64,000 nt of DNA, taken from NCBI GenBank assembly GCA_000517565.1, contig CP007051.1, forward strand, positions 1,664,001-1,728,000, given 5' to 3'. The translations under genes were made by a program, and so were the position numbers. Of this stretch, positions 20,621 through 35,442 are shown in pieces (the stretch's first letter is position 1; each line of letters starts with the position of its first letter). The notes beneath the pieces were generated by a model. That model was given only the letters and a program-made list of their open reading frames with translations. It did no database searches and was not told the DNA's origin. The DNA is from Desulfurella acetivorans A63. GTDB taxonomy: Bacteria; Campylobacterota_A; Desulfurellia; Desulfurellales; Desulfurellaceae.

Positions 20621-21334
20621 GTTGCATTCTTTCCCGCTTTGAAGGGAATTACGACGGGGGTGACAGACAAATGTTTCCATTTTTTTTGCTTCTAGAACAG
20701 TTGCATTCTTTCCCGCTTTGAAGGGAATTACGACCTCCATACTGACTCCTCAAGATTGATGATTGGGTCCCCTTGTTGCATTCTTTCCCGCTTTGAAGGG
20801 AATTACGACTGGAAACGAGTCTCGTTTCCACTATTGCTGCTCCAGTTGCATTCTTTCCCGCTTTGAAGGGAATTACGGGCGTTTTGCCGCAAGCTAGGAG
20901 TTAGCTTTGTTAGCAATTTGGGAGTTTGTTGTTCTTTCCCGCTTTGAAGGGAATTACGACAAAAATACCAAATACTTCATCAACTTCAATGGCGAAGTTG
21001 GTTGCATTCTTTCCCGTTTTGAAGGGAATTACGACAGTATCTAGCGCTTGGTAGGTTTACTAGGCTTACGCCAGTTGCATTCTTTCCCGTTTTGAAGGGA
21101 ATTACGACGTGTTCTCGTCAAGGCGCCAGAGATAACTATCATATCCGTTGCATTCTTTCCCGCTTTGAAGGGAATTACGGGCGTTTTTGCGCAAAGCTAG
21201 TTATTGGCTTTGTTGGCAAGATAAGAGCTTGTTGTTCTTTCCCGTTTTAAAGGGAATTACGACTCAGAGGGCGAGAACAATAAAAATTTTTCTTCGTCTG
21301 TTGCATTCTTTCCCGTTTTGAAGGGAATTACGAC
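20621..21334. CRISPR. CRISPR array, 10 repeats and 9 spacers, no adjacent cas genes
   Basis: The 35-nt consensus repeat begins GTTGCATTCTTTCCCGC and ends TTTGAAGGGAATTACGAC on the plus strand; TTCCC/GGGAA forms its inner stem. Repeats: 20621-20655, 20700-20734, 20775-20809, 20845-20879, 20928-20960, 21001-21035, 21074-21108, 21147-21181, 21231-21263, 21300-21334. Spacers are 44, 40, 35, 48, 40, 38, 38, 49 and 36 nt, long as in type I-B/III systems. Repeats 4 and 8 end ACGGG instead of ACGAC, and repeats 5 and 9 are 33 nt, lacking CA near the start. A C-to-T change enters from repeat 6, so variation grows rightwards, consistent with a leader on the left. Repeat sequence alone (minus strand ending GAATGCAAC) would suggest the opposite orientation. 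No cas gene is in the window. Confidence 0.95.
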
Positions 21335-21413
21335 CGGAAGAAGAAAAGAAAAAGAAGTTGTGCTTGCCCCCTTCCCGTGCGCGCACAACAAATAATAACT
21401 CCCTTGATTTCTA

Positions 21414-21517: not shown

Positions 21518-21721
21518 ATGGCTAATAAAGTAAGTGATAATATCCGTAAATTAAGGCAGAAAAAAGGGATGTCCCAAGATCACCTTTCTAAAGAGGCGGT
21601 TTTGGCTTTGAATACAATTGTCAAAATTGAGACGGGCGAGAATCCAAATCCCATAGTAGAGACTTTAGAAAAAATCGCCAAAGCTCTTGGCGTTTCCGTC
21701 GCCGAGCTATTTAAGGAATAA
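21518..21721 (+). CDS. XRE-family HTH regulator, likely restriction controller protein
   Basis: A 67-aa single-domain helix-turn-helix protein of the Cro/C1 type. The HTH spans about residues 10-60 (SQDHLSKEAVLALNTIVKIE), the compact size of restriction-modification C proteins. It is followed four bases later by the endonuclease gene, the usual C-R order that delays restriction until methylation is established. A Shine-Dalgarno AAGGA lies before ATG 21518. It probably regulates its own promoter at 21414-21442, but I see no unambiguous C-box. Confidence 0.85.
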   Translation: MANKVSDNIRKLRQKKGMSQDHLSKEAVLALNTIVKIETGENPNPIVETLEKIAKALGVSVAELFKE

Positions 21722-21725
21722 AATT

Positions 21726-22532
21726 ATGAAAATACCAGATAAAGCGACAATCAAAACATTAGTTCATACTGCCGTTGAGTCCTACGCTCAAGGATTTCAG
21801 GCAAGACATGAAGGTGAAGTTGATAATCCCGAAGGGACTATCAATATGAAAATCCATAATGTTTTTATTGAGGCATTGGGGAAAGAAATTCAATATTACA
21901 CCGCTTTGGTCCGCTCGCTTGATAGTTCACTTGGTAATATGCTTGAGACTTTAGCGATAAACATTGCCACCCTTTCATTTGAAGTAAAAAGAAATGTTGA
22001 AGGTCCGCTTAAAGCGGAACAGACAAGAATCATTGCTGAATTATTGGAAAAATACAAAAGACATGAGATAAAACCAAGTGTTAAAGATTATCAAGTTTTG
22101 CGCTCAATTGCTGGACAAGATAAAGCTCCAATCAAACGGCATGACAGTGATTATTATTTAATTGATAAGGAAACAAATGCCCACTATTTGATTGAGTTAA
22201 AGATTGGTGGCGATTTGGACAATAAAAAAGCACGTTCTGAAAAGGAAGCTATTTTGGAACAGTTTGCCATTCTGTCTAATGTTTTGCCGTCCAAAACTAA
22301 TATTAAAATATTTTTTGCAACCGCTTACAATCGTTATGGGGAAAATAAACCTTGGCGGCAAGAGCGAGTTAGACAATTTTTTGCAGACGAAGAATTGTTA
22401 ATTGGAAAAGATTTTTGGAATTTTGTTTGTCGCTCGGAAGAAGGATATAAAACAGTTCTTGAAGCTTATAGAGAAAGCGCACCAATAATAAAACGGGCAC
22501 TCGATTCCATTAAGAAAACTTATCTTGGATAA
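21726..22532 (+). CDS. Type II restriction endonuclease, TdeIII/MjaII-like
   Basis: A 268-aa protein resembling the TdeIII family of type II endonucleases. The N-terminal half is helical (TIKTLVHTAVESYAQGF onward). The PD-(D/E)xK-like core is the Asp in RHDSDYYLID followed by IELKIGG, with later conserved AYNRYGENKPWRQ. As I recall, enzymes of this family cleave GGNCC; the specificity here is inferred. ATG 21726 has AAGGA upstream, overlapping the end of the HTH gene. It lies between a controller-like HTH and a methyltransferase, completing an R-M cassette. Confidence 0.75.
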   Translation: MKIPDKATIKTLVHTAVESYAQGFQARHEGEVDNPEGTINMKIHNVFIEALGKEIQYYTALVRSLDSSLGNMLETLAINIATLSFEVKRNVEGPLKAEQTRIIAELLEKYKRHEIKPSVKDYQVLRSIAGQDKAPIKRHDSDYYLIDKETNAHYLIELKIGGDLDNKKARSEKEAILEQFAILSNVLPSKTNIKIFFATAYNRYGENKPWRQERVRQFFADEELLIGKDFWNFVCRSEEGYKTVLEAYRESAPIIKRALDSIKKTYLG

Positions 22533-22536
22533 AAAT

Positions 22537-23265
22537 ATGGAAGAAAATTACAAACTATATTTAGGTGATAGTTATAAATTAATAAAGGAGATACCCACAG
22601 CTTCTATTGATTTGATTCTTACTGATCCTCCATACAATTTAAGCAATTATTCAACTGGAAATATTAAATTGTCTTGGCGAAAAGATATAAACAATGATGT
22701 TGCTGAATGGGATAAAGTAGAATTTAAGCCGATTGATTGGGTAAAAGAATTTAAGAGAATATTAAAACCAACTGGAAATATCTTTGCATTTTGTAGTTAT
22801 AATCTCATAGGAAAATGGCATGAAGCATTTGATCCAGAATTTGATACTTTTCAATTTGTTGTATGGCATAAAACAAACCCCGTGCCAAAGGTATTTCGTG
22901 CTGGTTTTCTTAATAGCTGTGAACTTATAGTTTGTATGTGGAATAAAGGACATACTTGGAATTTCAGCAATCAAAGAGAGATGCACAATTTTATTGAAAC
23001 ACCAATTTGCATGGGACCAGAAAGAGTAAAAAATCCTTTTCATCCAACACAAAAACCAGTAAAGGTTTTAGAACATATAATCAAGATTGCTTCTAAGGAA
23101 GGTGATATAGTTTTTGATCCTTTTATGGGAGTTGGCTCAACAGGCGTTGCCGCTTTGAATTTAGGACGAAAATTTATCGGTATTGAAATTGACGAAAAGT
23201 ATTTCAAGGTTGCCGAAAAAAGATTAAAAGTCGCCGCTGGAAACTTAAAATTATTTAAATACTAA
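22537..23265 (+). CDS. DNA methyltransferase, beta-class DPPY type
   Basis: A 242-aa DNA N6-adenine or N4-cytosine methyltransferase. The catalytic motif IV TDPPYNLSNY (about 30-40) precedes the SAM-binding motif I DPFMGVGSTGVAAL (about 197-210), the order of the beta class. The HPTQKP motif is present before motif I. I prefer ATG 22537 over the in-frame TTG at 22525, which lies inside the endonuclease stop region; there is no strong Shine-Dalgarno. It should protect the site cut by the preceding endonuclease. DPPY is commoner in N6-adenine enzymes, which sits uneasily with a GGNCC target. Confidence 0.88.
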   Translation: MEENYKLYLGDSYKLIKEIPTASIDLILTDPPYNLSNYSTGNIKLSWRKDINNDVAEWDKVEFKPIDWVKEFKRILKPTGNIFAFCSYNLIGKWHEAFDPEFDTFQFVVWHKTNPVPKVFRAGFLNSCELIVCMWNKGHTWNFSNQREMHNFIETPICMGPERVKNPFHPTQKPVKVLEHIIKIASKEGDIVFDPFMGVGSTGVAALNLGRKFIGIEIDEKYFKVAEKRLKVAAGNLKLFKY

Positions 23266-23271
23266 TCTATT

Positions 23272-23694
23272 ATGTATTACGATTATCTTCGCAAAAAAGA
23301 AAAAAAGAGAGTATTTCTTAGTTTTGCTTCAGAGGATTTAGACCATGTTCGTGGATTGCGTTTATTAAAAGATAATCCAAATTTTGATCTTGAATTTTAT
23401 GATGAGTCCATTAAAGAACCAATTGATAGCCGAAATGCTGATTATATTAAGAGGGTGATAGGGGAACAAATTAGCAGAGCGAGTGTTACTGTTTGCTTAA
23501 TAAGTGAAACGACACATCAAAGTAAATGGGTTGACTGGGAATTAGAGAAAAGCGATGAAGAAGGGAAAACCATTATTGCTATGGCTATAAAGGGAGTAGA
23601 AAGGGCAATATTGCCGAAGTTAATTAAAGAGAAAAACTTAATTTTTTGGAGTTGGGACCCCGAACATTTAGCAAAATTAATAAGCGAAGCATAA
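23272..23694 (+). CDS. TIR-like DUF1863 (ThsB-type) protein
   Basis: A 140-aa protein matching the MTH538 TIR-like family DUF1863, the domain of the Thoeris signalling enzyme ThsB. The first strand is RVFLSFASEDLDHVRGLR (13-30), the second DLEFYDESIKEP (39-50), and the region SKWVDWELEKS carries the conserved glutamate (Glu90) expected to act on NAD+. Such domains cleave NAD+ and can make cyclic ADP-ribose-type messengers. It lies 6 nt after the methylase and directly abuts the SLATT gene (TAAATG), implying joint expression and function. No SIR2/SLOG or Macro-TM ThsA is present. Confidence 0.85.
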   Translation: MYYDYLRKKEKKRVFLSFASEDLDHVRGLRLLKDNPNFDLEFYDESIKEPIDSRNADYIKRVIGEQISRASVTVCLISETTHQSKWVDWELEKSDEEGKTIIAMAIKGVERAILPKLIKEKNLIFWSWDPEHLAKLISEA

Positions 23695-24117
23695 ATGACG
23701 CAAGAAAATCCAACAATTCAAAGACTGGAAGACCAGATCGATTGGTATGACCGAAAAAGCAATATCAATCAAAAATTTTTCCATTGGTTAAAGATAATTG
23801 AGATTATAATAGCGGCTTTTATTCCTTTTCTATCTGGCGTAAGCGCGCCGGCAATTTTAACCGGCAGTGCTGGTGTTTTAATTGTCGTTCTTGAAGGATT
23901 ACAACATTTGTTTCAATTCCAACATAATTGGATTACTTATCGCTCCACTTGCGAAAATTTAAAGCATGAAAAATATCTTTGGCTTGCAAAATCAGGACCT
24001 TATGCTGACGCTGAAAACCCGGATGTTTTATTGGCGGATAGAATTGAAAGTTTAATTTCTCAAGAACATGCTAAATGGATTGCCGGGCAAGAAAAAGTAG
24101 GACAATTAAAAAGATGA
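23695..24117 (+). CDS. SLATT/DUF4231 two-helix membrane protein
   Basis: A 140-aa protein of the DUF4231 (SLATT superfamily) type. A short N-terminal helix (LEDQIDWYDRKS) leads to two transmembrane helices (about 31-47 and 52-69), followed by a conserved cytoplasmic helical region (WITYRSTCENLKHEKYLWL) and a C-terminal helix. SLATT proteins are predicted pore-forming effectors in nucleotide-messenger conflict systems. The ATG follows the TIR stop codon with no gap, so expression is coupled. The inferred role is membrane depolarisation when the TIR partner signals infection. Confidence 0.85.
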   Translation: MTQENPTIQRLEDQIDWYDRKSNINQKFFHWLKIIEIIIAAFIPFLSGVSAPAILTGSAGVLIVVLEGLQHLFQFQHNWITYRSTCENLKHEKYLWLAKSGPYADAENPDVLLADRIESLISQEHAKWIAGQEKVGQLKR

Positions 24118-26397: not shown

Positions 26398-29300
26398 ATG
26401 CAATCTTCAAGCGACCTTACATTTATTACAAATGAAAATAATCAAAGCCTACTTGATCGCTTTAAAGTACTCATAAAAGATGCAAAATATTTTGATTGTC
26501 TTGTGGGTTACTTTTATACAAGTGGTTTTTATGCATTGTATAAATCACTCAATGAAACTGAGAAAATAAGAATTTTAATAGGCATTGGCACATCAAGCGA
26601 AACTTACAATTTAATAAAAGCTGCAATCTCGCATAAAGAAACAAAACAAATGATTGAAAATCTCGTAAAAAGTGAATTAGATGAATCAGAAGATAACTTT
26701 GATACTGAAGAGGGAGTTCAAAAGTTTATTGAATGGATAAATACTGGAAAAATTCAAATAAGAGCTTATCGTTCACAGAATCTCCATGCAAAACTTTATA
26801 TTCTCACTTTTAAGGAAGGGGACAGAGATGTAGGAAGAGTCATCACAGGTTCAAGTAATTTTACTCAATCTGGACTCGAAGATAATCTTGAATTCAATGT
26901 GGAGCTTAAAAACGCTTCCGATTACGAATTTGCAAAACAGAAATTTGAAGATTTATGGAAGGATGCTGTAGATGTCACTGAAAAATATGTCCAGACAATA
27001 AAACAAAACACATGGCTAAACGACAATATCACTCCTTATGAGCTTTATCTAAAATTTCTATACGAATATTTTAAGGATGAATTGAGCAGAACTGATGAAG
27101 TCTTCATAAAATATCTACCCGAAAACTTTAAAAGATTTGAATATCAAGAACAAGCAGTTTTGAATGCAAAACGCATTTTGGAAGAATACGGCGGAGTGTT
27201 TTTATCGGATGTGGTAGGCTTGGGTAAAACCTATATGGCAGCCATGCTGGCTGGTCAGATAGATGGTAGAACATTGGTCATTGCTCCTCCAACACTCCTT
27301 AATAGAAATAACCCAGGCTCTTGGCCAAATGTTTTTGCTGATTTTCATATACCAGCTGAGTTTGTTTCTATTGGTAATCTTGATAACGCTAAAGTATTAA
27401 CAGATCAGAGAGAATATAAAAACATTATTATAGATGAAGCACACCGCTTTAGAACTGAAACAACAATTAGTTATGAAGACATTGCAGAAATCTGTCGTGG
27501 GAAAAGGGTGATTTTGGTCTCTGCAACTCCTTATAATAACTCACCAAAAGATATTTATGCACAGATTAAACTCTTTCAGAATCCAAGAAAAAGCACCATT
27601 CCAGGGGTTCCAAATCTTGAAGACTTCTTTGGAAAGCTTGAAAATAAGTTAAAGAAAGTTAACCGTCAAAAAGATTATGAATTTATTGAAATAACAAAAG
27701 ATATTGCCAAAGAAATCCGTGATAAAGTTTTAAAACACATAATGGTCAGAAGAACAAGAAGTGAAATTGAAAAATACTTTGCAGAGGATTTAAAAAGAAA
27801 CAATGTCAAGTTTCCGGAAGTAGAAGATCCAAAGCCACTTTTTTATCAGCTAAGTGAAGAGGAAGACAGAATTTTTATGGAAACAGTTAGGTTGATAACG
27901 CAGGAATTCACCTATGCTCGTTATACACCCTTACTTTACTTTAAAAAACACATTTCTCCTCTGGAACAGCAATCCCAGAAAAATATGGGCGGCTTTATGA
28001 AAGTACTTCTTGTTAAACGCCTGGAAAGTAGCTTTTATGCATTTAGAAAAACTATTGATAGATTTATTCGTTCCTATGAGAATTTTATTAAAGAATACAA
28101 AAATGGGAATGTATGGATTAGTAAAGGATATATAAATAAAATTTTCGAACTTCTGGAAGAAGGTGATGATGCGGTAATCCAGAAACTTATTGATGAAGGA
28201 AAAACAGAAAAGTACCCGAGTTCTGATTTTGAACCAAAATTTAAAGAAAATTTAGAAAAAGACCTCAAAATTTTAAAAGACATACAAAAAATGTGGGAAT
28301 CAATAAAAAGAGACCCCAAACTTGAAACCTTGTTGGATAATCTCAAAAACCATCCCATATTAAAAGATAGGAAAATAATTATTTTTACAGAATCAAAGGA
28401 AACTGCAGGATATTTAACTGAAAACATAAATAATGAATTTGGTAGAATAGCTCTTCTCTTTCATGGTGGCTTTCCAGAAAATGCTAAAGATCAAATTATA
28501 GAAAACTTTGATGCAAGAGTAAGGAACAAAAAAGATGATTACAGAATCCTTGTATCAACCGAGGTTCTTTCAGAAGGTGTTAATCTCCACCGTTCAAACA
28601 TAGTGATAAATTATGATATTCCATGGAACCCAACCCGATTAATGCAAAGAGTTGGTAGAGTTAATCGTATTGATACACAATTTGATAAAGTTTATACTTT
28701 TAACTTTTTCCCAACAAAGCAAGCAGATTCAGAGATTGCGCTTATCAGCATTGCACGTTCAAAAATAGAGGCATTTTTAACCCTCCTTGGTGGTGACTCA
28801 GCCATACTCACTGAGGAAGAATCAGTTTCGTCTCACGAATTATTTGATAAACTCCTTTCAAAGAAAACCATTACAGAAAACGATGAAGAAGAAAGTGAAC
28901 TTAAATACTTAAGAATTATTGAAGATATAAGAGATAAAAATCCTGAGTTTTTTGAGAAAATAAAGCGTCTTCCCAAGAAAGCCCGTTCAGCAAAAGTGTT
29001 TTCAGAAAACCTGAAAGAGTATGCTACCTATAAATCTTTGCTCACTTTTTTTAGAAAAGGCAAATTGATGAAATTTTATTTATCAAATCGTGAATCCACA
29101 TTAGAACTTGATTTTTTAACGGCTGCGAAAATACTAGAAAGTATTCCTGAAGAGAAAATCAAAAAACTTCCACTTGAGAGCTATTACGAACTGCTTAATA
29201 AGAATAAAACTGCATTTTTCAATGCCACAATTGATGAGATAATAGAAATCCGTTCTAAGAAAGGTAGAGATAGTTCAACACAACTTCTTAAAATCCTTAA

Positions 29301-29619
29301 AGCAACACAAAAAAATGGCAGGCAATTAACCGAAGACCAGGAAGAATATCTCAAAAAAGTAATAAACCGTCTTGAAGAGGGCTCATTACCGAAAAAGACA
29401 GTTCAGAAAGCCCTTAAAGCATTAAGTGAACTTGGAAAAGACATTCAAAATCCATTGAAAGTTATTGGTGTATTACAAAGGGAGATCTCACCTACCTTTC
29501 TTAAAAGTCATTATGCAGAGACTTCTGCTATAACAGAAGGAAAAAGGGAAGTTATTTTATCACTTTATTTAACAGGGGAAAGCAATGAATATAGAACACG
29601 CAAGAAATCTAATAATTGA
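26398..29619 (+). CDS. PLD-domain SNF2-like helicase
   Basis: A 1073-aa fusion. The N-terminal phospholipase D/HKD domain has LHAKLYI (about 129-135) and GSSNFTQSGL. The superfamily 2 helicase follows: Walker A VVGLGKT (about 272-278), DEAH box (about 346-349) and, in the second RecA lobe, motif VI QRVGRVNRID (about 750). Such fusions occur beside restriction and anti-phage methylases, where they probably translocate on or remodel invading DNA. An AGAGG Shine-Dalgarno precedes ATG 26398. Its 3' end overlaps the methylase by 35 nt. The SNF2-methylase pairing recalls DISARM drmD-drmMI, but drmA and drmB are absent. Confidence 0.88.
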   Translation: MQSSSDLTFITNENNQSLLDRFKVLIKDAKYFDCLVGYFYTSGFYALYKSLNETEKIRILIGIGTSSETYNLIKAAISHKETKQMIENLVKSELDESEDNFDTEEGVQKFIEWINTGKIQIRAYRSQNLHAKLYILTFKEGDRDVGRVITGSSNFTQSGLEDNLEFNVELKNASDYEFAKQKFEDLWKDAVDVTEKYVQTIKQNTWLNDNITPYELYLKFLYEYFKDELSRTDEVFIKYLPENFKRFEYQEQAVLNAKRILEEYGGVFLSDVVGLGKTYMAAMLAGQIDGRTLVIAPPTLLNRNNPGSWPNVFADFHIPAEFVSIGNLDNAKVLTDQREYKNIIIDEAHRFRTETTISYEDIAEICRGKRVILVSATPYNNSPKDIYAQIKLFQNPRKSTIPGVPNLEDFFGKLENKLKKVNRQKDYEFIEITKDIAKEIRDKVLKHIMVRRTRSEIEKYFAEDLKRNNVKFPEVEDPKPLFYQLSEEEDRIFMETVRLITQEFTYARYTPLLYFKKHISPLEQQSQKNMGGFMKVLLVKRLESSFYAFRKTIDRFIRSYENFIKEYKNGNVWISKGYINKIFELLEEGDDAVIQKLIDEGKTEKYPSSDFEPKFKENLEKDLKILKDIQKMWESIKRDPKLETLLDNLKNHPILKDRKIIIFTESKETAGYLTENINNEFGRIALLFHGGFPENAKDQIIENFDARVRNKKDDYRILVSTEVLSEGVNLHRSNIVINYDIPWNPTRLMQRVGRVNRIDTQFDKVYTFNFFPTKQADSEIALISIARSKIEAFLTLLGGDSAILTEEESVSSHELFDKLLSKKTITENDEEESELKYLRIIEDIRDKNPEFFEKIKRLPKKARSAKVFSENLKEYATYKSLLTFFRKGKLMKFYLSNRESTLELDFLTAAKILESIPEEKIKKLPLESYYELLNKNKTAFFNATIDEIIEIRSKKGRDSSTQLLKILKATQKNGRQLTEDQEEYLKKVINRLEEGSLPKKTVQKALKALSELGKDIQNPLKVIGVLQREISPTFLKSHYAETSAITEGKREVILSLYLTGESNEYRTRKKSNN

Positions 29620-32600
29620 AACCTTTGAAAATTCTTTTAATGAAAATAATTTTAAAAAATTCATTTCCAATCTATTCAAGAGCTACGATAGGACTAAAGC
29701 CCTTCAGCCAAGATATGGGACACAGGGCATTACCGAAAGATACCTTGGTTTCATTAGCTCCTGGGAAAGAATTGGCCGTTATGAGGATAGGGATGGCAAA
29801 AAAATTGATATATTGATAATAAAACTAAAAAAAGGGCAATCTCTTTACAGAGCAAGAACCGCTCAGAGAAACTTTGTCGCCGATTATTTAAAAGGAAAGC
29901 TTGGAACAACTACAGAAAAAGATGCAGCTCTTATTGCCTTTGTCCCACCCGATTCCAATGAGTACGATTGGCGATTTTCTTTGGTAAAATTGGACTATCG
30001 TTTTGAGGGGAATAAACCAAAAGAAGAATTTACTTCTGCTAAAAGATGGTCCTTTTTAGTCGGTAAAAATGAAAAAAGTCATACTGCCCAAAGCAGATTT
30101 TTACCCATAATTGAAAATGATGGATTTCAACCCACGCTTGAAGATTTAGAAAAAGCTTTTGATGTTGAAGTTGTAACAAAAGAGTTTTTTGAAGCTTACA
30201 AATATGCTCTCAGAGAGATCATTATTAAGTCCCTTTCTAAGTTTAACCTTTCCTATGAAAAGAAGCATTCATTTTCTCAGTTGTTATTATCAAGGATTAT
30301 GTTTTTATACTTCTTACAGAGAAAGGGATGGCTCAAATGGAAAGATTACGTTCAGGATAAAAATTACATAAAAAATCTATGGCTGGAATATAAAAATTGG
30401 CGTGAAAAGAAAAAAGCGAAAAATCTCTTCTACTCTGAGTGGCTATCCAGCCTTTTCTTTGGAGCTTTTAACAAGAAAAATCATCTGTTTCATCCAAACT
30501 TGCCAGAAGATATTAAAGAATCTTTTAGCATTATGCCTTTTTTAAATGGTGGTCTTTTTTCTCGCACAGAACTTGATGAACTTGGCTTTGATATTCCCGA
30601 TGATGTTTTCGAATGGTTGTTTGAACCAGACTTCTCCGACCTAAAAAAAGGCTTTCTTGAAACATTTAATTTTACTGTCGATGAATCTTTGCCTCTTGAT
30701 ATTGAAGTTGCGGTTGACCCAGAGATGCTCGGTAAAGTCTATGAATCATTAATTGCAGAAGAAGAAAGAGGCGAATTAGGAATATTCTATACTCCAAGAG
30801 TTGAAATTGACTTTATGTGCAGAACGTCCCTTGTGGAATACATCTCTAATGAAACAACAATCCAAAAACAAAAAATAATTGACTTTGTTTTTAATCCTCA
30901 TGAAAGCATCGTTAATTTATCAAATGATGAAGCAAGAGAGATAAAAAGTAAGCTTAATGAAGTAAAAGTGGTTGACCCTGCTGTTGGCTCTGCTTCTTTT
31001 CTTGTTGGTATGATGAATATTCTGGTTGCAATTCACCAGGAATTAACCAAAAAACTTGAAAATAAGGATGAAAATCTATTTGCCTTAAAACACAAAATAA
31101 TCCTTGAAAATCTTTATGGTGTTGATGTCAAAGATTGGGCAGTTATGGTTGGAGAGCTTCGGCTCTGGTTTTCTCTAATTATAGAAACCGATGAAAAATA
31201 TATGGACATCTACACAAAACCACTTTTGCCAAATCTTTCATTCAAAATCCGTCAGGGTGATTCCCTTATTCAGGAGATTGTTGGTATTAACATAAATCTC
31301 AAAAGTGAGATGTTGGACATTCCAAAGCAAATCAGAGATAAAATAACAGAACTAATTGAAAGAAAATCTACATTCTTCTCTGGTTTAAGAAGCGCTGACC
31401 TTAAAGAACTCAGAGAAATTGAAAAGTATGAACAGGATATATTCAAAGAGATTATTAAGATGAAAATTAATGAAGTGTATAAAGACAGACCATATCTTGA
31501 AACCCAAATTGCAAACTTAAAATCTACGAAGAAACTTTTTGGAGAAGGAAGAACCAAAAAAGAGCAAGATGAAATTAAAAAACTTGAGGAAAAACTGGAA
31601 GGAATTAATTCCGCATTTAATAAATACAACTCACTTTTAAAAACAATTGGGAGCAAAACACAAAAAGATTACTTCTTCTGGGAACTTGACTTTATTGAGG
31701 TATTTTCTCAAAAAGGTGGCTTTGACATTGTAATTGGAAATCCTCCTTATGTAAGGCAGGAACTTATTGCTCCACCCCTTGAAAAAAATTACACAGATGA
31801 GCGGTGGCGTGAGATTAAAAGAGAATACAAAGAAAAACTTATCCGATCAGCAAAAAACACATTGAATGTTCCAATAAAAATTGACCGAAAAAGCGACCTA
31901 TATGTGTATTTTTACTATCAGGGGCTTTCTCTTTTAAGACCGGGTGGAATTTTTACTTTCATTAATTCCAATTCCTGGCTTGATGTTGGTTATGGTGCGG
32001 GACTTCAGGTGTTTTTGCTCAAAAATATGAAGCCACTTTTTATATTTGATAACTTGAAAAAGAGGTCTTTCAAACAGGCAGATGTAAATACAGTTATTGT
32101 AGTGATTCAGAAACCACAGCAAAAACTTGATGATTACACAATAAAATTTGTTGCCTTCAAAAAGCCCTTTGAAGAGGTAAATAATGCAGAAGTTGTAAAG
32201 AAAATCTATAATGCAAGCCAGCCCATTTTTGACGATGAAGATTTCAGAATATATCCAAAAACAAAAAAAGAACTTTTGCTTGAAGGGGTTGAACTCCAAG
32301 AAGAATCAGCAGGATCGTTAGAATTTGAACCAGAATATCTTCCTTATATTGGCAACAAATGGGGCGGAAAATATCTAAGAGCACCGGAGATTTATTTTAA
32401 GATTTTAGAAAAAGGGAAAGACAAGTTGGTAAGGCTGGGAGATATTGCGGAAGTGCGTCGTGGTTTTACAACAGGAGCAAATGAATTTTTCTACTTAAAG
32501 CCTGTTGGAATGAGTGTTAAAGAAGTTGTGGAGATATCAGAAAAGAACCCTGATGCTTTGATACCTGTTAAAAATAATGCTGGCTGGTAAGGTGAAATAG

Positions 32601-33328
32601 AGGCAAGGTTTTTAAAGCCTTTATTATTTTCGTTGAAGGAAGTAGAAAATTATCAAGTTAATATCAACCTATTGAAAAGTTTAGTCTTATTTTGCAAGGA
32701 AAAACCTTCTAAAAATTTATTAGATTATATAAAATGGGGTGAAAAACAAAATTTTCATAAAAGACCATCTGTAAAAAGCAGAGAACATTGGTATATCTTA
32801 CCAGAAAAAACTTTTCCTCATTTCGTTTCTAATCGTTTCTTAGGAGAACGTTTTGGCTTTCCCATTATTAAAAATGAAGTTTTGGTATGCGATGTGTTTT
32901 TTGTCGGTATATTTAAAGATATTGATTTTGATATTTATGTATCCATAATGAATGGAACATTTTCTTTTTTATCTATTGAAGTAATCGCAAGAAAAACATA
33001 TGGTATCGGAGTCGCTTATATTTATGGTCCAGAAATTAGCAATTTATTAATGATAAATCCGAAAATTTTGAAACATGAAGAATCAGTTAAAACCAAAGAG
33101 ATTTTTGCGAATATGAGAAATCGCCCCATCTACTCCATCTTCACGGAACTTGGCTTTGACCCAAACAAGCCCATTCGTGAGCAGGAGCCAAATCCATTGC
33201 CAGATAGAAAAGCCCTTGATGATATTATTTTTGATGCCCTTGGCTTGACAGAAGAAGAGCGAAAAGAGGTTTACTGGGCGGTTGCCGAACTTGTAAAAAC
33301 CAGATTAGAAAAAGCAAGAAGCGTGTGA
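29585..33328 (+). pseudogene. Eco57I-like adenine-specific DNA methylase, interrupted by TAA
   Basis: A large type IIG/Eco57I-like N6-adenine methylase of about 1247 codons. SAM motif I is VVDPAVGSASFLVG (about 462) and motif IV is IGNPPYVRQE (about 718-727). After residue 1001 a single TAA (32588-32590) interrupts the frame; the same frame continues without shift through GEIEARFLKPLL and the whole TaqI-like specificity domain to the stop at 33328. The residues on both sides join as a normal methylase would (NNAGW, one codon, GEIE). The break is therefore one nonsense codon, for example from GAA or CAA. The N-terminal part retains catalysis but loses target recognition. A sequencing error is possible. 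Confidence 0.9.
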
Positions 33329-33332
33329 TGAA

Positions 33333-34682
33333 ATGATTGAGACAGAAAATCAAAATGTGGAACTGAAATCCAGATGGTCTGATGAAAATTTGAAAACAGT
33401 TTGTGCTTTTGCCAATTCATCGGGAGGGAAACTCTACATAGGGATAGACGATAAAGGAAAAATTGTTGGGGTAAACGATGCGAAAAAGTTGCTTGAAGAT
33501 ATACCAAACAAAATAAAAAGCAAGCTCTTTATTACGCCTTTTGTAAGTATTGAAAATAAAGAAGGGAAAGATGTTATAGTCATAGAAGTTTTGCCTTCCA
33601 CCTTTCCTGTTTTTTATGAAGGGAAAATATTTGTAAGAAGTGGCTCCACAACGCAAGAGCTCACAGGTTTGGAACTTTCTTCCTTTCTGCTTGAAAAATC
33701 AGGTCAAACATGGGATAAACTCCCTTCTGACGCAGAAGAGAAAGATTTAGATACTGAGACCATAGAAAAATTCATCTCTCTTGCAGAAGTTCGCTTACCC
33801 TTGATAAAAAGTATCAAGTCAAAAAATGAACTACTTAAAAAACTCAATTTATATACAAAAGATGGTAAGCTAACCCGTGGAGCAGTATTACTGTTTGGTA
33901 AAAATCCCCAGTTTTATTTTCCATCTGCTTACACAAAGGTCGGTCGTTTTAAAACCCCAATAGATATTTTGGACACAATAATTATTGAAGGAAACCTATT
34001 TGAGCAACTTGACCACACAGTAGAAGCAATTAAAAAACATATAAGTGTAAAATTTGATACCTCTGTCAAAGATTTTTCACTTGAAGGTCTTGCAAGACGC
34101 GATATTTGGGAATATCCTCTTGATGCATTAAGAGAAGCTGTGGTCAACGCTTTAATTCATAGAGATTACCTCGGAACTGCTCCGATACAAATCAAAATTT
34201 TTGACGATAAAATTGAATTTTGGAATTTAGGAAAACTGATGCCTCCTTTGACTCCTGATGATTTAAGAAGACAGCATCAGGCAAATCAAAGAAACCCTCA
34301 AATAGCAACTGTTTTTTATTACGCTGGTTTGATAGAATCATGGGGTTCAGGAACTATAAAGATGGTAGAACTATGTAAAGAAAGCGGATTGCCAGAACCA
34401 GATTTTATCAATTATGAGCAAGGTATGGGTGCTTTTTCTGTAATCTTCTATAAAGATATTTATACCGAAGAGAATTTAAGAAAAATGGACTTAAATGAAA
34501 GACAGATAAAGGCAGTTATGTATGTAAAACAAAAAGGAAAGATTACAAATAAGGAATATCAGAAAATAAATGATTGCCATAGAAACACTGCAAATAAGGA
34601 TCTATCAGAATTAGTAGTCAAAGGAATATTAAAAGAAAGTGGTAAAAAAGGTGCGGGAGCGTTCTATGAAATTGCACATTGA
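33333..34682 (+). CDS. AlbA/Schlafen-type ATP-binding regulator
   Basis: A 449-aa protein. The N-terminal AlbA_2/Schlafen AAA domain (about 1-110) begins ENQNVELKSRWSDENL and contains ANSSGGKLYIGIDDKG. The middle part (about 250-370) resembles the GHKL-like ATPase region of RecG-like regulators (REAVVNALIHRDY, GSGTIKMVEL). A C-terminal winged helix (about 390-449) suggests DNA binding. These proteins often accompany defence and toxin-antitoxin loci. The gene begins 5 nt after the methylase stop. Five ATTGCACA repeats overlap and follow its 3' end and may be its operator. Confidence 0.85.
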   Translation: MIETENQNVELKSRWSDENLKTVCAFANSSGGKLYIGIDDKGKIVGVNDAKKLLEDIPNKIKSKLFITPFVSIENKEGKDVIVIEVLPSTFPVFYEGKIFVRSGSTTQELTGLELSSFLLEKSGQTWDKLPSDAEEKDLDTETIEKFISLAEVRLPLIKSIKSKNELLKKLNLYTKDGKLTRGAVLLFGKNPQFYFPSAYTKVGRFKTPIDILDTIIIEGNLFEQLDHTVEAIKKHISVKFDTSVKDFSLEGLARRDIWEYPLDALREAVVNALIHRDYLGTAPIQIKIFDDKIEFWNLGKLMPPLTPDDLRRQHQANQRNPQIATVFYYAGLIESWGSGTIKMVELCKESGLPEPDFINYEQGMGAFSVIFYKDIYTEENLRKMDLNERQIKAVMYVKQKGKITNKEYQKINDCHRNTANKDLSELVVKGILKESGKKGAGAFYEIAH

Positions 34683-34720
34683 TTGCACATATTGCACATC
34701 AATTGCACAATAATTGCACA
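34671..34720. repeat. Five directly repeated ATTGCACA boxes
   Basis: Copies start at 34671, 34682, 34691, 34702 and 34713, that is with spacings of 11, 9, 11 and 11 nt, close to one helical turn. They run from the last codons of the AlbA gene up to the DUF2851 ATG at 34723. The 10-mer ATTGCACAAT (34702-34711) recurs inverted as ATTGTGCAAT at 35664-35673, before the TPR-like gene. An operator array for the upstream winged-helix protein is the simplest reading. Confidence 0.75.
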
Positions 34721-34722
34721 TT

Positions 34723-35442
34723 ATGAATATAGATATTACACAACTTGGCAACCGCTGGCTTGAATTGAAAAAACAGAGGATGCAGAACCTTTTGAAAATT
34801 GCTCTGCCTGATGAAGCACTTTACAGAGAAATTATGCTCTCCCTTGGATATCCCAATAATAAGGTGAATTTCTTAGAGCTTGCACTTATTACTCCTTATG
34901 CTGAAATAAAGAAATTAAAGGAAAGGCAAATTATAGAAAAAGCCCTTTTATATAGAGCAGGATTTACAGATGATAAAGAAGGATTATCAGAGGATTTTGA
35001 TTTTTCTTTGAAGATAGATAAATCCGTCTGGAACTATAAAGGCATAAGACCAGCAAACTTTCCTGAGAAAAGAATTAAAGGAATATCAATTCTACTATCG
35101 CAGACAATTGAAAAAGGGATTGTTCATTTCTTTTTAGAGCGTATTAAGGCAGAATTGAATAATAAAAATCCAAAAGATGCGGTAAAGAAAATAATGAACT
35201 TCGGCGGGATTGGACTTCAAAGAAAAGTGGAGATGTTTTTCAATATAATAATGCCTTTCTTTATAGTTTATTCGGAGGATGATAAGATCAAAAATTTTCT
35301 GAATTTTATTATTGAAAAACATCCATCATTAAGTGAGAATGGACTTATCAAATCTTTCAAGCTCAACTATCCAGATATTAAGATTGAGAATGTTAAAACA
35401 TATATGGGAGCTATACTGTTTCAAAAAAGTAAAAGAACTTGA
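34723..35442 (+). CDS. DUF2851-like protein, short
   Basis: A 239-aa protein resembling the C-terminal half of DUF2851 proteins (usually about 420 aa). The N-terminal GNRWLELKKQRM, the ALITPYAEI segment and GIRPANFPEKRIKGISILL match the family pattern. I use ATG 34723; a TTG nine bases earlier lies in the ATTGCACA repeats. There is no good Shine-Dalgarno. The last residues FQKSKRT coincide with the start of a methylase tail in another frame, so the original C-terminus may have been replaced by recombination. Function is unknown. Confidence 0.65.
   Translation: MNIDITQLGNRWLELKKQRMQNLLKIALPDEALYREIMLSLGYPNNKVNFLELALITPYAEIKKLKERQIIEKALLYRAGFTDDKEGLSEDFDFSLKIDKSVWNYKGIRPANFPEKRIKGISILLSQTIEKGIVHFFLERIKAELNNKNPKDAVKKIMNFGGIGLQRKVEMFFNIIMPFFIVYSEDDKIKNFLNFIIEKHPSLSENGLIKSFKLNYPDIKIENVKTYMGAILFQKSKRT

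Follow-up and report, generated by a model that had tools for sequence, protein, structure and literature searches.

In the stretch of Desulfurella acetivorans A63 DNA analysed here (64,000 nucleotides, hereafter the window), the methylase gene of a putative two-gene restriction system is interrupted by an in-frame TAA codon at 32588–32590, which is most likely a recent, ordinary loss-of-function mutation that would switch the system off, as judged from comparison with related sequences. The overall explanation that we prefer, and hold to be probable, is that a nonsense mutation arose recently ahead of the recognition cassette, and that modification and restriction would both be off as a result. 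The helicase, the methylase with all its parts and the two genes that follow are encoded on the + strand.

A Single Stop Codon in the Methylase Frame

The codons TGG TAA GGT were read directly at positions 32585–32593, in the frame of the ATG at 29585. The TAA is the sole stop in a methylase frame of 1,247 codons (29585–33328), as had been claimed by the sequence-only reading: 1,001 sense codons precede it, 245 sense codons follow it, and a TGA at 33326–33328 closes the frame. At 33.5% G+C about 7% of random codons are stops, and by this arithmetic 245 codons would remain open by chance with a probability of about 1e-8. Third-position G+C in the codons just ahead of the stop is normal. Since this long opening after the TAA defies chance, and since the same 245 codons are homologous to the matching part of intact relatives, the frame is truly one gene.

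The relatives comprised 80 related loci from a single scan covering genome contigs, along with further loci from plasmids and viruses. In the 45 loci showing a GWxG motif, the codon aligned with the TAA encodes Glu (41 loci), Lys (2), Gln (1) or Ile (1); the comparison of this codon among homologues, which had been proposed from the sequence alone, thus returned a sense codon in every case and a stop in none. The rest of the frame past the stop (32591–33328) is still conserved. When the gene was aligned with 15 close relatives and the columns invariant in the others were counted, the post-stop part matched 45 of 45 such columns, while control genes from relatives lost from 0 to 3 of about 46. 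As this part is undecayed, the stop must be either recent or a base-calling error. A premature stop followed by a part that is still conserved is the mark of a pseudogene of recent origin, and recent decay, one of the options raised earlier, is therefore supported.

Modules of the Methylase and Position of the Lesion

The truncated methylase ORF (29585–32590, 1,001 aa) comprises an N-terminal domain, a gamma-class (Eco57I-like) catalytic core and the first part of a specificity domain. It matched the Eco57I domain with 94.6 bits, against a cut-off of 25.3, and MmeI_Mtase, and its translation contains the SAM motif DPAVGSAS, found also in the relative L042, together with NPPY, as in Eco57I-like gamma-class N6-adenine methylases. 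DNA similarity to most relatives is lost at about 32619 and regained at about 33134, and this gap of about 171 codons marks what would be a recognition cassette open to exchange (the variable specificity, or TRD, cassette, 32620–33133). It is followed by a conserved C-terminal tail (33134–33328), the DNA of which is mostly 75–89% identical to that of distant bacteria. In the relatives, the C-terminal part matches the M.Eco57I specificity domain (M_Eco57I_C) in 7 of 27 cases and the TaqI one (TaqI_C) in 1 of 27. The structure model of the C-terminal part of the window methylase was poor (pLDDT 72, pTM 0.41), fold comparison with it returned nothing useful, and a PDB search with this part found no sequence relative.

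The TAA precedes the variable cassette by 30 bp, so the product would contain no part of the cassette or of the conserved tail. The earlier claim that loss of the specificity domain should stop target recognition agrees with this arrangement, in which the entire predicted cassette lies past the stop.

The Helicase Partner and the Methylase N-Domain

The intact gene at 26398–29619 encodes a fusion of a PLD (HKD) nuclease with a SNF2 helicase, the predicted restriction/translocation subunit. It was recognised by PADLOC (HKD+Snf2) and by the Pfam domains PLDc_2, SNF2-rel_dom and Helicase_C, and its translation shows the motifs HAK, GSSNF, GLGKT, DEAH and QRVGRVNR. The methylase gene begins at 29585, before the helicase gene has ended at 29619, and for this reason the two are probably one operon. 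The same methylase is adjoined by the helicase in more than 50 loci, with the gene order either way.

We propose that the methylase N-domain (about 175–180 aa, 29585–30120) is a dock for the helicase, on the basis of co-variation, alignment and an AlphaFold2 model. The model is confident (pLDDT 88), and its comparison with PDB folds gave no significant match; an alignment of 21 N-domains showed no conserved acidic/lysine triad and no conserved nuclease residues. Co-variation between the N-terminal 175 residues and the helicase was evaluated by partial Mantel tests in 49 loci, accounting for the shared history of the methylase core. The correlation was 0.88 over all 49 loci, 0.95 where the helicase is upstream and 0.78 in the 31 loci where it is downstream, with p about 0.0005 in each case; in those 31 loci the helicase gene does not adjoin the N-domain. 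The TRD showed no link with the helicase (−0.06). The same pattern can be seen in single loci: L042, L044 and L052 have helicases 64–77% and N-domains 49–60% identical to those of the window, whereas in L041, L036 and L069, with cores at least as similar, the helicases are about 31% and the N-domains about 20% identical. This co-variation suggests that the N-domain docks the helicase, in which case the methylase subunit would direct the helicase to its target, as happens in enzymes of Type I and Type ISP.

Alternative Explanations for the Stop

The TAA is one base from a common sense codon of the relatives and the remaining frame, the post-stop part included, looks fully conserved, as would be expected if the gene were intact in the living strain and the stop were a base-calling or assembly error. 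However, assembly errors are mostly indels, and the change here is a substitution with no adjoining homopolymer. The quality of the assembly also argues against an error (a genome of 1.82 Mb in 2 contigs, 100% complete and 0.06% contaminated), as does a coarse check of the window, which revealed no further interruption of this kind, and we consider this explanation unlikely. Reversible phase-like switching or cassette exchange, with the stop as one state of a switch, appears highly improbable. Relatives do exchange the recognition cassette between conserved flanks, and some of them have extra copies of the tail, but the stop arose by substitution at a site with no tandem or inverted repeat and no homopolymer of at least 6 bases, and a search of the whole genome found no second copy of the methylase, the cassette or the tail. 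The simple repeats, inverted cassettes or silent copies of a phase-variable system were thus not found, and the phase-like inactivation contemplated by the sequence-only reading was not borne out.

The two fragments could instead be made separately and cooperate as split M and S subunits, for which Thermus oshimai and Allomeiothermus silvanus offer a precedent: in both, the methylase has been naturally divided from its specificity domain, with overlapping stop and start codons; on two Thermaceae plasmids (L033:7988-11405 and L034:7844-11174) the methylase and the specificity domain are separate overlapping genes with the same split point. We assign very little likelihood to such an arrangement here, because the Thermaceae split falls about 110 residues earlier, ahead of the specificity domain, whereas that of the window is inside the conserved shoulder of the domain; moreover, the earliest in-frame start past the stop is a TTG, 14 codons on, that lacks an obvious ribosome-binding site, and none of the relatives is split at this position. 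Programmed readthrough or recoding of the TAA, yielding some full-length enzyme, would account for the full conservation of the downstream part, but relatives have sense codons at this position, TAA is the ordinary stop of neighbouring intact genes in the window, and we know of no use of TAA as a selenocysteine or pyrrolysine codon; it is extremely improbable. Readthrough, split subunits and phase switching were rejected on the points raised against each. Finally, methylation might be off while the helicase, whose gene is intact, still acts alone as a standalone PLD-helicase defence. NCBIfam NF042964 describes a standalone PLD-type anti-phage family, which the helicase matches with 155 bits, far below the cut-off of 1100. 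We find this very unlikely, since the co-variation of the N-domain with the helicase and the adjacency of the two genes in more than 50 loci argue for an obligate pair.

Broken and Missing Copies in Relatives

The methylase is broken beside an intact helicase in five relatives, by two stops in L038, frameshifts in L045 and L060, a stop in L059 and a truncated tail in L101; several of the broken relatives are metagenome assemblies, in which single cases may be errors. Broken methylases (about 7 of 72) and broken helicases (2 of 54) do not differ clearly in frequency, and selection to switch the methylase off finds no support in these counts. In Thermodesulfobacterium hveragerdense (L046:4762-11652) both the helicase and the methylase carry frameshifts. 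The locus of a sister species matches the window at 93% DNA identity as far as position 28001 of the window, inside the helicase, with unrelated genes beyond; its assembly lacks the remaining helicase sequence as well as the methylase and the genes that follow, and is fragmented, with Ns near the junction. From the broken methylases of relatives and the absence in the sister species, the system appears dispensable in the genus.

Neighbouring Genes

Downstream of the methylase, the window encodes an accessory neighbour with AlbA/Schlafen and HATPase_c_4 domains (33333–34682), matched near few related loci, and a DUF2851 protein (34714–35442), which is a frequent neighbour, found beside the methylase in about 12 relatives. 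A short tandem repeat, AATTGCACATT, was observed at 34670–34723, between these two genes. In several relatives, extra copies of the methylase 3′ end occur downstream of cargo genes (L039:3252-3419, L043:2720-2903, L081:11597-14176, L042:13979-14058, L090:13033-13100 and L101:11479-11799), with six copies in all in L081, and genes resembling REP-associated transposases, from a reading of their translations, are present near the extra copies in L042, L081 and L090. To judge from these loci, recombination or the insertion of cargo seems to occur at the methylase 3′ end.

Other possible defence elements were observed in the window: a CRISPR-like array (20621–21347) with ten copies of a repeat of about 33 nt at a spacing of 70–82 bases, one copy of which is also present in the sister-species locus L122; a TdeIII-like restriction enzyme that appears intact and has its own methylase (21687–23265); and a ThsB-like TIR protein with a SLATT/DUF4231 membrane protein directly after it (23272–24117), which may be a small defence pair.

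Comparison with Known Systems

The system resembles the Type ISP enzymes LlaGI and LlaBIII in having a nuclease, a DNA translocase, a gamma-methylase and a C-terminal TRD, with one recognition domain that aims the enzyme (PMC3874165), but it consists of two polypeptides and a PLD nuclease takes the place of the Mrr-like one. The co-variation of N-domain and helicase supports an interaction of the kind expected for a translocase-nuclease aimed by its methylase, as in Type ISP and Type I systems, and the pair may be of this type. With the Eco57I-like Type IIG enzymes, which gave the best PADLOC models for the methylase, it shares a methylase core with a C-terminal specificity domain; by contrast, the N-domain lacks the conserved residues of the catalytic PD-(D/E)xK nuclease that Type IIG enzymes have at the N-terminus, in keeping with the alignment and fold comparison described above, and a separate helicase-nuclease usually adjoins the methylase. 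A SNF2 helicase beside a PglX-like adenine methylase is found also in DISARM class 1 (DrmD, DrmMI) and in ARMADA (PMC12458937), but the window helicase reached 147.6 bits with the NCBIfam DrmD model, against a cut-off of 610. In DISARM class 1, DrmD would be accompanied by DrmA, DrmB and DrmC; none of the ten neighbouring proteins scanned had DrmA or DrmB as best family, and no YprA-like gene was recognised among them. The DUF499-centred BREX-related (Hma) type 2 systems likewise combine an HKD nuclease and a Swi2/Snf2 helicase with an N6-methylase (PMC12839542); no DUF499 ATPase was found among the same ten proteins.

Target recognition for cleavage by CglI and NgoAVII sits in the nuclease protein. 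These systems are similar in that a PLD nuclease cooperates with a methylase and an ATPase resembling a helicase (PMC4267653), but there each of the three has a gene of its own. Our literature search found no characterised member of the helicase-methylase system described here and no methylome for the species.

Proposed Mechanism and Significance

The pair would be a two-gene, ATP-dependent system of the restriction-modification kind, in which a PLD-SNF2 helicase-nuclease acts with a gamma-class N6-adenine methylase and the target is chosen by the C-terminal specificity domain of the latter. The truncated methylase would retain the docking N-domain and the catalytic core, sequence recognition being gone; if it is the methylase that aims the helicase, modification and restriction would fail together, and the cell would survive with an intact helicase gene, both activities being off. 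The lesion may be tolerated for this reason. Docking, the loss of both activities and tolerance are the steps that we infer. The sequence-only reading had warned that restriction continuing in the absence of methylation would be harmful: the helicase is indeed intact, as this presupposes, but the expectation of harm has to be revised, as the co-variation suggests that one lesion disables both functions.

The stop itself represents ordinary decay in a system of a kind already known; what is added here is the module map and the co-variation, the comparison marking the borders between the helicase together with the methylase N-domain, the core, the cassette and the tail. The system is found in many bacterial and archaeal phyla. 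As a tentative proposal, to which we give somewhat less than even chances, the PLD-SNF2 helicase and the gamma-methylase may form a two-subunit, ATP-dependent type of restriction system that is widespread and as yet unnamed. In this view the helicase docks on the methylase N-domain, both activities are aimed by the exchangeable cassette, and a point mutation at the cassette would be a safe off-switch, a state reached repeatedly in relatives. The TAA lesion is thus a natural test: with a helicase aimed by the methylase, the loss of the recognition domain would be harmless, whereas with an autonomous restriction helicase the unmethylated cells would be killed.
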